Source: Arthrobacter crystallopoietes
GTDB taxonomy: Bacteria > Actinomycetota > Actinomycetes > Actinomycetales > Micrococcaceae
DNA: 64,000 bases
Reading direction: 5' to 3'
NCBI RefSeq assembly: GCF_017603825.1
Contig: NZ_CP072014.1
Location: 4,278,001 to 4,342,000 of the forward strand
The notes beneath the pieces are model-generated. The model had not been told where the DNA came from. It did no database searches and was given only the letters and a program-made list of their open reading frames with translations. Below, one piece after another: positions 40,284-41,608 of the stretch. Within the stretch, counting starts at the first letter, position 1. Each line of letters starts with the position of its first letter. Made by a program: the position numbers and the translations under genes.

Positions 40284-41396
40284 TCAGCGGGACATTCCGG
40301 CTCGCTGAACACTGCTCAAGGCAAGGTGGGCGAGCGTGGAAACCGTCATGTCCCAGTCCATGCATGCGTCCGTCACACTCTGCCCGTAAACCAGTTCGGC
40401 GTTGCCGGCTGCCTGGTCAGCGACATCCAGTTTCTGCGCTCCCGCTACCAGGAAGCTTTCCAGCATGATCCCGGCAATGGCGGAGGCGCTGTGGCCTGTC
40501 CCCTCCAGTTGGGCGGCCACGTCCAGCGCCACCTCTGCCTGCCGGTGATGGCTCTTGCCGCTGTTGGCATGGCTGGCATCAACGATCAGCCGCGGGTTAA
40601 GCCCCGCTTCCGCCAGCAGCTCCGAGGCACGGACAACATTGGCGGCGTCGTAATTTGGTCCGGCATTGCCGCCGCGCAGAATCAGGTGTGTATCGGCGTT
40701 CCCCGCGGTAGAGACCATGGCGGCCCGGCCGGCTTCGTCAATACCAAGGAAAGTTTGCGCAGCCGAGGCGGCGGTGCAGGCATCAAGCGCAACCTGCAGC
40801 CCGCCGTCGGTCCCGTTCTTGAAACCGATCGGCATGGACAGTCCCGAAGCGAGCTGGCGGTGGATCTGGCTTTCCGTTGTGCGCGCACCGATCGCTCCCC
40901 AGCTGACCAGATCAGCTACGTACTGCGGGCTGATCGGTTCGAGGAACTCGGTGGCAACAGGGAGCCCGAGGTCGGCTACGTCGAGCAGGAACCGGCGCGC
41001 CGTTCGGAGCCCGGCGGCAACGTCATGCGAGCCGTCCAGGCGCGGGTCGTTGATTAGGCCTTTCCAGCCAACCGTGGTGCGCGGCTTTTCGAAGTACGCG
41101 CGCATGACGACGAGCAGCTCGGAGCTGTGCTGCTGGGCCACCGCTGCCAGGCGCCGCGCGTAGTCGAGCCCGGCCTCCGGATCATGGATGGAGCATGGGC
41201 CGACGATCACCAGCAGCCGGTCATCAACGCCGTCCATGACCGCACGGATCTCGGCGCGGCCACGGTCGACGACGGCGGACTGTTCGGCAGTTGCCGGCAG
41301 CTCTTCGATGACCTCATGCGGCGTCGGCAGCGCACTGAAGGAGGTGACCCGCAGGTTGCTGGTCTGGATCTTGTCTGCGTTCAGTACCGGATTCAT
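40284..41396 (-). CDS. aroF: 3-deoxy-7-phosphoheptulonate (DAHP) synthase, class I AroG/AroF type
   Basis: DAHP synthase joins phosphoenolpyruvate and erythrose 4-phosphate, the first step of aromatic amino acid synthesis. The 370-residue protein has class I (AroG/AroF) signatures: VIVGPCSIHDPE, MRAYFEKPRTTVGWKGL, WGAIGARTTESQ, GFKNGTDG and ILRGGNAGPNYD. The 5' region contains a leader ORF rich in Trp, Tyr and Phe codons and a terminator, so expression is probably attenuated by aromatic amino acid supply. It follows the sugar kinase gene on the same strand but probably has its own promoter. Confidence 0.93.
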   Translation of the reverse strand: MNPVLNADKIQTSNLRVTSFSALPTPHEVIEELPATAEQSAVVDRGRAEIRAVMDGVDDRLLVIVGPCSIHDPEAGLDYARRLAAVAQQHSSELLVVMRAYFEKPRTTVGWKGLINDPRLDGSHDVAAGLRTARRFLLDVADLGLPVATEFLEPISPQYVADLVSWGAIGARTTESQIHRQLASGLSMPIGFKNGTDGGLQVALDACTAASAAQTFLGIDEAGRAAMVSTAGNADTHLILRGGNAGPNYDAANVVRASELLAEAGLNPRLIVDASHANSGKSHHRQAEVALDVAAQLEGTGHSASAIAGIMLESFLVAGAQKLDVADQAAGNAELVYGQSVTDACMDWDMTVSTLAHLALSSVQRAGMSR

Positions 41397-41452
41397 GGTT
41401 TTCCCGTCTTATGATGGCGGGAACCAATCAGAACCCGCCGTGGAAATGGCGA

Positions 41453-41476
41453 AGGGCAGAGAATGATCTCTGCCCT
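41453..41476 (-). terminator. Attenuator-type terminator hairpin in the aroF leader
   Basis: AGGGCAGAGA (41453-41462) pairs perfectly with TCTCTGCCCT (41467-41476), loop ATGA. On the minus strand the stem is followed by TCGCCATTTCC and aroF starts 57 bases beyond. It lies downstream of the leader ORF and could stop transcription before aroF. Confidence 0.7.
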
Positions 41477-41477
41477 G

Positions 41478-41541
41478 TTGGCTCTGAAGGTGTCGGTTGC
41501 GCACGCCGTTAGGCAGTCACGTTAGGCCCCTCCAGAGCCAA
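41478..41541 (-). promoter_or_regulatory. Leader mRNA pairing segments upstream of the aroF attenuator
   Basis: On the minus strand the segment at 41541-41529 (TTGGCTCTGGAGG), immediately after the aromatic codons of the leader ORF, can pair in 12 of 13 positions with 41490-41478 (CCTTCAGAGCCAA), immediately upstream of the terminator. This is the 1:2 stem expected in an attenuator. An alternative 2:3 antiterminator with good pairing was not found (only CAGAG/CUCUG), so the exact switch is uncertain. Confidence 0.5.
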
Positions 41542-41571
41542 CGGAAAATACGCATACCAACGGGTTGTCAT
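41509..41571 (-). CDS. Leader peptide of the aroF attenuator (Trp/Tyr/Phe-rich)
   Basis: A 20-residue ORF reading MTTRWYAYFPLALEGPNVTA from ATG 41571, stop TAA at 41511-41509. Codons 5-9 are TGG TAT GCG TAT TTT, i.e. Trp, Tyr, Ala, Tyr, Phe: the three aromatic end products in one run just before DAHP synthase. A longer start at ATG 41583 (adding MLVD) is in frame. Two CATAAT boxes overlap the end of the kinase gene at 41609-41623 and could be the promoter. Ribosome stalling here when aromatic aminoacyl-tRNAs are scarce would affect the downstream hairpin. Such a leader has been described for aroF in Corynebacterium, to my memory. Confidence 0.8.
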   Translation of the reverse strand: MTTRWYAYFPLALEGPNVTA

Positions 41572-41608
41572 GTCCACGAGCATAAGCCACGATTTCCACC
41601 CTGCGACA

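Follow-up and report, generated by a model that had tools for sequence, protein, structure and literature searches.

Expression of aroF in Arthrobacter crystallopoietes is very probably subject to ribosome-mediated control by the aromatic codons of a short open reading frame (ORF) that precedes the gene, and, in the lineage to which this bacterium belongs, the control is likely to involve an exchange of RNA pairings in which two segments, B and C, compete for a third, B′. The locus lies in a stretch of 64,000 nucleotides (the window), on the reverse strand of which all the features described here are found. Comparison of related loci and predicted folding support the leader ORF, its leaderless spacing, its codon bias, the pairings B:B′ and B′:C, a hairpin named T and the complementarity in two alternative hairpins, D and S, next to the gene. 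The full model, i.e. a ribosome-mediated attenuator with a leaderless sensor, a three-segment switch and translation as the main output, is the reading that we favour, with modest confidence.

In the mechanism that we propose, where the direction of regulation, the placing of the ribosomes and a mainly translational output are inferred, transcription would start at or beside the leader AUG and ribosomes would read MTTRWYAYF... When charged tRNA-Trp or tRNA-Tyr is scarce, a ribosome would halt on the W/Y run and leave B free, so that B:B′ could form; C would then be available for hairpin D, the strand complementary to the aroF Shine-Dalgarno (SD) site would be locked in it, and aroF would be translated (ON). 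When the codons are read fast, the ribosome would reach the stop codon and cover B, B′:C would form a junction around T and a small hairpin, E, and, with the 5′ arm of D thus consumed, the anti-SD strand would take the aroF SD site (OFF). Hairpin T would act as a scaffold, and perhaps also as a terminator or pause site.

The gene itself (40284..41396) encodes a type I DAHP synthase of 370 amino acids, as identified by the NCBIfam profile TIGR00034 (aroFGH; 470 bits) and by Pfam PF00793 (282.8 bits); the host genome contains one further DAHP synthase, a type II enzyme encoded elsewhere, and the same scan found no aromatic leader in front of this second gene. The ORF of 20 residues with aromatic codons that the preliminary description had placed upstream of aroF is confirmed at 41509..41571 (MTTRWYAYFPLALEGPNVTA, including the stop codon), its end being separated from the aroF start by 112 nt; an in-frame ATG further upstream, at 41583, would give MLVD-MTTRWYAYF... 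The Trp, Tyr, Tyr and Phe codons do stand in one run, as had been said (TGG TAT GCG TAT TTT), and with the preceding CGT they make up the putative sensor (41545..41562; R W Y A Y F), the nucleotides of which are near-invariant across Arthrobacter-like and many Microbacterium-like loci. This 18-mer (CGTTGGTATGCGTATTTT) has a single occurrence in the host genome, even with three mismatches permitted. A short ORF with end-product codons 5′ of aroF is the arrangement that a ribosome-mediated attenuator would be expected to have.

Relatives were gathered by means of AroF, the 80 named loci being the best 80 of at least 575, and the conservation of the ORF that had been proposed as a check is found: the leader motif is present in 76 of the 81 aroF loci (80 relatives and the window) and was not found in L052, L056, L071, L072 and L078. 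Leader-bearing loci belong to 17 named genera, i.e. Arthrobacter, Pseudarthrobacter, Paenarthrobacter, Sinomonas, Kocuria, Zhihengliuella, Microbacterium, Brachybacterium, Humibacter, Subtercola, Microlunatus, Williamsia, Gordonia, Mycobacterium, Mycolicibacterium, Corynebacterium and Pseudonocardia. In L009, an Arthrobacter-like aroF with its leader is found on a contig that bears the name of a Firmicute, Sporosarcina beigongshangi, and its record is probably mislabelled or contaminated. The leader peptides vary (RWYAYFxLALEGPA, RWFTYAMSAPEGPAA, YWRFIxAPGGA, RRYPYFAQAPGGA, QRFYFGGAPG). With a threshold of E 1e-60, a type I AroF was detected in 78 of the 297 genomes examined from the order and in 63 of the 296 from the class; a simple scan gave no leader in 32 of 127 further regions, six of which show one by eye and one of which is masked, and the remaining ones belong for the most part to two groups which, judged by kinship numbers only, may be Bifidobacterium-like and Pseudonocardiaceae-like.

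A fixed motif delineated B and B′ in 147 of 208 regions, several of the other 61 having variant leaders; a stem above the threshold together with a start codon was present in 121, the start codon nearest to the aromatic run being taken as the leader start. In all, 118 sequences were used for the covariation scan, for the swaps between classes of B′ and for the control of B′:C, 116 for a duplex search, 110 of the 118 for folds of truncated transcripts and 112 of the 118, which have a C partner, for folds with stalled ribosomes. For swap tests, 103 sequences were thinned to 56 representatives with less than 80% identity. Throughout, p-values overstate the evidence because the sequences are related. 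An ordinary, non-regulated 5′ UTR, conserved from close kinship only, might be considered on account of the close kinship of the Arthrobacter-like sequences, but the same architecture is built from different sequences in Mycobacteriales and others at about 60% AroF identity, and such a reading, contradicted also by the covariation reported below, is scarcely tenable.

The start of the leader has features of its own. A −10-like hexamer, TATGCT, is found at 41579..41584, 7 nt 5′ of the leader start codon; a TANNNT motif ends 6-7 nt ahead of the start codon in 104 of the 121 delineated leaders, and an SD-like motif precedes the start in one of them. A −10 element about 7 nt before the start codon and the lack of an SD site are the marks of leaderless short-ORF attenuators and, judged from the sequence spacing, imply that the leader mRNA would be leaderless, with transcription beginning at or next to the AUG. 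Stalling of a ribosome on such a leader can give access to the ribosome-binding site of the gene that follows. Leaderless polycysteine short-ORF attenuators of mycobacteria have reportedly been described by Canestrari et al. in 2020; the aroF leader is similar in its leaderless sensor ORF and in the proposed release of the ribosome-binding site, and differs in the amino acids and genes concerned and in the extra B/B′/C switch. It offers a case for the open question of how a leaderless sensor ORF acts on the expression of the gene behind it.

A second case is offered for the open question of why attenuator leaders favour rare U-ending codons, since the use of Tyr and Phe synonyms in the window (41562-41545) and its relatives is the extreme reverse of that in the gene: the 121 leaders contain TAT 196, TAC 4, TTT 106 and TTC 22 times, and the aroF genes, in those loci that include the gene, TAT 5, TAC 520, TTT 14 and TTC 833 times. 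The two Tyr codons, and likewise the two Phe codons, are usually read by one tRNA, so that a choice among isoacceptors is an unlikely cause of the bias; it may instead stem from slow reading by wobble or from a requirement that the 5′ end be unfolded. The conservation of synonymous codons also bears on the proposal that RWYAYFxLALEGPA is an arrest peptide, which would itself stall the ribosome on a small-molecule cue. The peptide is unusually conserved, including residues past the aromatic run, as arrest would predict; the post-aromatic residues, though, track the RNA of segment B, the other frame being used in L049, L051 and L067 (RWYAYRSGSGGA / RWYAYGRGSGGA), and the peptide differs elsewhere (YWRFI, RRYPYF, QRFYF), which together with the conserved synonyms makes nascent-chain arrest very improbable.

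Segment B, which corresponds to the post-aromatic codons (41529..41542; GTTGGCTCTGGAGG), pairs with B′ (41477..41490; CCTTCAGAGCCAAC) through 14 contiguous base pairs, one of them G-U, a better stem than the pairing of 12 out of 13 originally claimed. Hairpin T (41453..41476) consists of 10 bp (AGGGCAGAGA-TCAT-TCTCTGCCCT). The leader of the window folds with z-scores of −5.1 and −5.5 relative to shuffled sequences, none of 200 shuffles being as good in either instance. Across the 118 sequences of the covariation scan (effective number 34), ranks 1-3 are occupied by column pairs of B:B′ and T, with B:B′ providing the top-ranked pair, and unpaired column pairs appear from rank 4; the compensatory changes that the preliminary description had suggested looking for are thus present in both the stem and the hairpin. 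B:B′ and T have no bases in common and form in the same fold; a direct overlap between them was sought by eye and none was found. By eye, the aromatic codons could also pair with sequence beyond the stop codon; this possibility was set aside, as the codons hardly vary and full-length folds favour B:B′.

Without overlap, B:B′ cannot be a classical antiterminator, nor is T switched as in the classical scheme. In the trp/pheA-type attenuators of Escherichia coli, the leader codons are those of the end product, the pairings 2:3 and 3:4 exclude one another, and starvation gives 2:3. The OFF hairpin of that type is a U-tract terminator broken by the ON pairing; here, no U tract comes after B′:C, in which C would correspond to segment 4, and T coexists with B:B′. 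The leader differs from the E. coli systems also in the independent hairpin between segments 3 and 4 and in having no SD site of its own. The perfect 10-bp hairpin of the preliminary description is real, with all its 10 bp and with covariation, but a role as a terminator switched by the stem is not supported, as it forms alongside the stem and its tail (TCGCCATT) is U-poor and not a U tract. A terminator scan of the window did not flag T; it flagged a small hairpin right after it (41453-41434; one found, 0.2 expected). T-rich tails are rare in this host, since only 3 of 196 perfect hairpins in 464 kb of its genome have at least five T in an 8-nt tail, so that tail composition is no decisive guide to termination here.

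Termination at T is nonetheless a serious rival of the translational model. In this alternative, attenuation would be of the classical transcriptional kind, with T as an intrinsic terminator that the nearby upstream B:B′ hinders sterically or by timing, C and D being accessory. T belongs to the two best covarying helices, and its tail is U-rich in Mycobacterium/Williamsia-like and Corynebacterium loci, as well as in the copies preceding a chorismate mutase-type gene described below; in L259, a T-like hairpin with a TTTCGTC tail lies directly 3′ of a tRNA-Glu gene, where a terminator is expected, and attenuation of aroF in Corynebacterium glutamicum is reported, in excerpts of the literature, as transcriptional. 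From the U-rich tails, the L259 hairpin and the reported C. glutamicum attenuation, it is likely that T terminates in some lineages. Against this account as the whole explanation stand the lack of bases shared by B:B′ and T, the U-poor tail in the lineage of the window, and segment C, which is conserved and covaries with B′ although it is transcribed only past the end point of T; this last point weighs more heavily against T being the only output. Furthermore, T is absent from six loci (L079, L080, L201, L203, L204, L207) that keep the leader and the B′:C hairpin, though only one of them clearly switches: folding predicts a clear exchange in L204 (P(B:B′) 0.82 with B free), B′:C is dominant in both states in L201, L203 and L207, and B:B′ does not form in L079 and L080. 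L200 and L202, both with T, are predicted to switch (0.80 and 1.00). T can therefore be lost, but these loci do not establish that the exchange works in its absence. On balance, we regard termination at T as a rather unlikely main output in the window, and output at the initiation of aroF translation as more likely.

The translational model depends on segment C (41428..41435; GGTTCTGA), an element 3′ of T with a sequence like that of B and complementarity to B′ (UCAGAGCC), first recognised by comparison by eye. The preliminary description had found the antiterminator pairing not obvious; the alternative partner is on the 3′ side of the hairpin, beyond the coordinates given there. B:B′ and B′:C are mutually exclusive, and C adjoins hairpins D and S. 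When B is exposed, folding of 121 sequences gives a mean P(B:B′) of 0.94 and P(B′:C) of 0.04; when the RNA upstream of a position 12 nt past the stop codon is hidden, as by a terminating ribosome, the mean P(B′:C) is 0.88 (n=121). The pairing of B′ with downstream RNA is 0.90 as compared with 0.56 when the downstream DNA is shuffled, 113 of 118 sequences being above their own control, although this shuffled control is high too, 89 of its 118 values exceeding 0.5.

Swap tests and a covariance model were used because the MAFFT alignment of the C region is poor. Among the 56 representatives, a sequence's own pairing is better than the mean of swapped ones in 55 for B:B′, 49 for D, 48 for B′:C and 46 for S; of the controls, the 3′ arm of D (D3′) with the aroF start gives 30 of 56 and B′ with the 5′ arm of T 19 of 56. 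The interaction between classes of B′ upon swapping is −5 kcal/mol for B′:C and −16 kcal/mol for B:B′, the reversed control being at +0.6 kcal/mol. The OFF fold is predicted to be a three-way junction, with B′:C closing T and hairpin E, the latter formed from the tail of T by CGCC (41448..41451) and 41439-41436 and found in relatives as CGCC:GGCG, CGUC:GACG or UGCC:GGCA. In an alignment of 36 of 58 representatives, a choice that favours the fold, 91.6% of cells can pair as compared with 36-57% for slid versions, and both-sided changes occur in 11 of 22 pairs, a number reached by none of 500 shuffles; the 22 sequences left aside comprise those of Mycobacteriales type, Corynebacterium included, two loci from Kocuria/Zhihengliuella and some whose length is unusual. 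After realignment with the covariance model (81 sources, 92 matches, 25 of them partial, antisense or stray and most of these informing hairpin T only), all five measures are above every shuffle, with an alignment that leans to structure. Folding and covariation thus point to two mutually exclusive pairings chosen by ribosome position, the ribosome positions being assumed.

A stable, conserved fold with a three-way junction could also belong to a structured mRNA leader, i.e. a riboswitch or a protein-binding element, to which the short ORF is incidental. This seems hardly credible, in view of the conserved aromatic codons, start codon and promoter spacing and of the fact that Rfam finds no family at its gathering score anywhere in the window, the one match obtained being at chance level (12.4 bits; gathering score 70).

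How the B/B′/C switch would act on aroF is suggested by the elements that follow. GGCGGG (41434..41439), the 5′ arm of hairpin D, shares bases with C and takes in the 3′ arm of E, and D3′ (41416..41425; GGTTCCCGCC), the anti-SD strand, can pair either with GGCGGG or, as hairpin S, with the SD region of aroF (41397..41408; GACGGGAAAACC). In transcripts ending before the SD site, the predicted pairing of D3′ is 0.73 when B is exposed, as compared with 0.49 when B is covered (79 sequences up and 5 down by more than 0.1; n=110), and it is again 0.73 when B′ is removed, so that B′ causes the difference. At equilibrium, the exposure of the SD site is equal between the states (higher with B free in 50 of 121, p=0.98), a result that lends weight to the terminator account, and an output at the SD site would therefore need co-transcriptional kinetics or commitment. 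A first, cruder duplex search found the anti-SD strand freer with B covered in 35 and with B exposed in 26 of 116 sequences (p=0.09), and SD pairings beating shuffles at p<0.05 in 33 of the 116. The aroF SD site in the lineage of the window is unusual (GACGGGA) and may be shaped by its pairing with the upstream anti-SD strand.

The codons at which a stall would have an effect were explored by folding 112 sequences with the leading edge of the ribosome placed 12 nt past the first base of the A-site codon, an assumed footprint. P(B:B′) is then 0.96 for a stall at the fourth-last aromatic codon, 0.93 at the third-last, 0.72 at the second-last, 0.13 at the last and 0 at the stop codon; the corresponding values for the window are 1.00 (Trp), 1.00 (Tyr), 0.84 (second Tyr) and 0.03 (Phe). 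With a 9-nt footprint the Phe stall is also ON in the window (0.84), and one of 15 nt restricts ON to Trp and the first Tyr. The suggestion that the leader reads all three aromatic end products is therefore uncertain: Trp and the first Tyr are predicted to be ON with all three footprints, and the outcome for the second Tyr and Phe depends on the footprint. Results reported for C. glutamicum aroF, according to which, in the excerpts concerned, Phe limitation acts and Tyr availability does not, do not simply agree with this stall model, since Tyr is the middle codon of F-Y-F and a stall at the second-last codon is predicted to be ON.

The kind of control proposed here has a precedent in the aroR-aroF attenuator of C. 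glutamicum, which is said to have been described by Neshat et al. in 2014. A leader peptide with Phe-Tyr-Phe before aroF of this organism is mentioned in excerpts of two papers (PMC11802643, PMC4046766) and named aroR in the former, which agrees with the comparable Corynebacterium leader referred to in the preliminary description; PMC11802643 also names trpL and pheL as leader peptides. The two systems are alike, as far as the excerpts go, in having a short aromatic leader before aroF and expression that rises when the aromatic codons stall, and the aroR-aroF arrangement of an aromatic leader directly 5′ of a DAHP synthase gene is found in the window, the comparison being one of arrangement. 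In contrast to aroR, the window reads W-Y-A-Y-F, its T has no U tract, and C together with D/S suggests an SD switch. Five Corynebacterium loci other than C. glutamicum match aroR in their F-Y-F leader and B:B′ stem; in them T is strong, C is not clear by eye, and folding gave a downstream partner of B′ in three. C. glutamicum is described, again in excerpts, as having two DAHP synthase isozymes, aroF and aroG, and in control searches both DAHP synthase Pfam families match its genome.

Other actinobacterial amino-acid leaders, such as the LEU element and the ilvB, trp and cys leaders (e.g. the ilvB uORF attenuator, or ilvB-II motif), as presented in excerpts of PMC1262725 and PMC10272879, are similar in kind, some of them being without obvious terminators, and differ in pathway; the excerpts of PMC1262725 report no conserved RNA structures 5′ of phenylalanine and tyrosine operons in the Actinobacteria genomes studied. 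The leader had been thought undescribed in an Arthrobacter-like genome: among the matches listed from the open-access literature, and in Rfam, no comparable aroF leader is described beyond Corynebacterium; the kind itself is known from aroR. Within that scope, the three-segment switch, the leaderless design and the breadth, by which one Corynebacterium example is extended to 17 named genera, are likewise undescribed. For many soil, plant-associated and industrial actinobacteria, the leader would be a point of control at the entry to the aromatic pathway that can be tested directly.

The module may also have been reused. A search with the OFF-fold model finds no locus other than aroF in the host genome and yields 37 matches in 246 genomes of the class, 28 of them just 5′ of a known AroF, four chance or unrelated and five elsewhere; these counts are lower bounds, as Mycobacteriales leaders score poorly (most at E of about 0.003 to 0.5). 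The four matches set aside by eye are L259, i.e. the hairpin after the tRNA-Glu gene, L262, L263 and L264. In the five others (L253, L255, L258, L260, L261) the module stands before the gene of a divergent protein that is DAHP synthase-like and has a chorismate mutase domain, as judged from Pfam matches of 37.4 and 33.2 bits in L253 and from similar sequence in the other four. The reused leaders carry one or two Phe codons in four genomes (e.g. MNRSFAFIEPAPGSRS) and Tyr and Phe in one (MTCRYAFIEPAPGGPVGG); a leader with Phe and no Trp is in keeping with the sensor logic where a chorismate mutase domain follows, one or two codons being weak evidence for it. That a single codon-position logic holds across the actinobacteria, with Trp or Tyr stalls turning aroF ON and a stall at the last codon (Phe) leaving it off, B and C competing for B′, and the module being reused before a chorismate mutase-type gene, is a tentative extension that we hold with less than even belief, the more so as the codon logic varies with the footprint assumed. 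Two of the aroF loci in which the leader motif was not found, L071 and L072, both under the label Chloroflexi/Dehalococcoidia, contain different short ORFs 5′ of the gene in which aromatic residues form a run, VWFFYPGRL and RRRFFYPRR; these are possibly separate attenuators.
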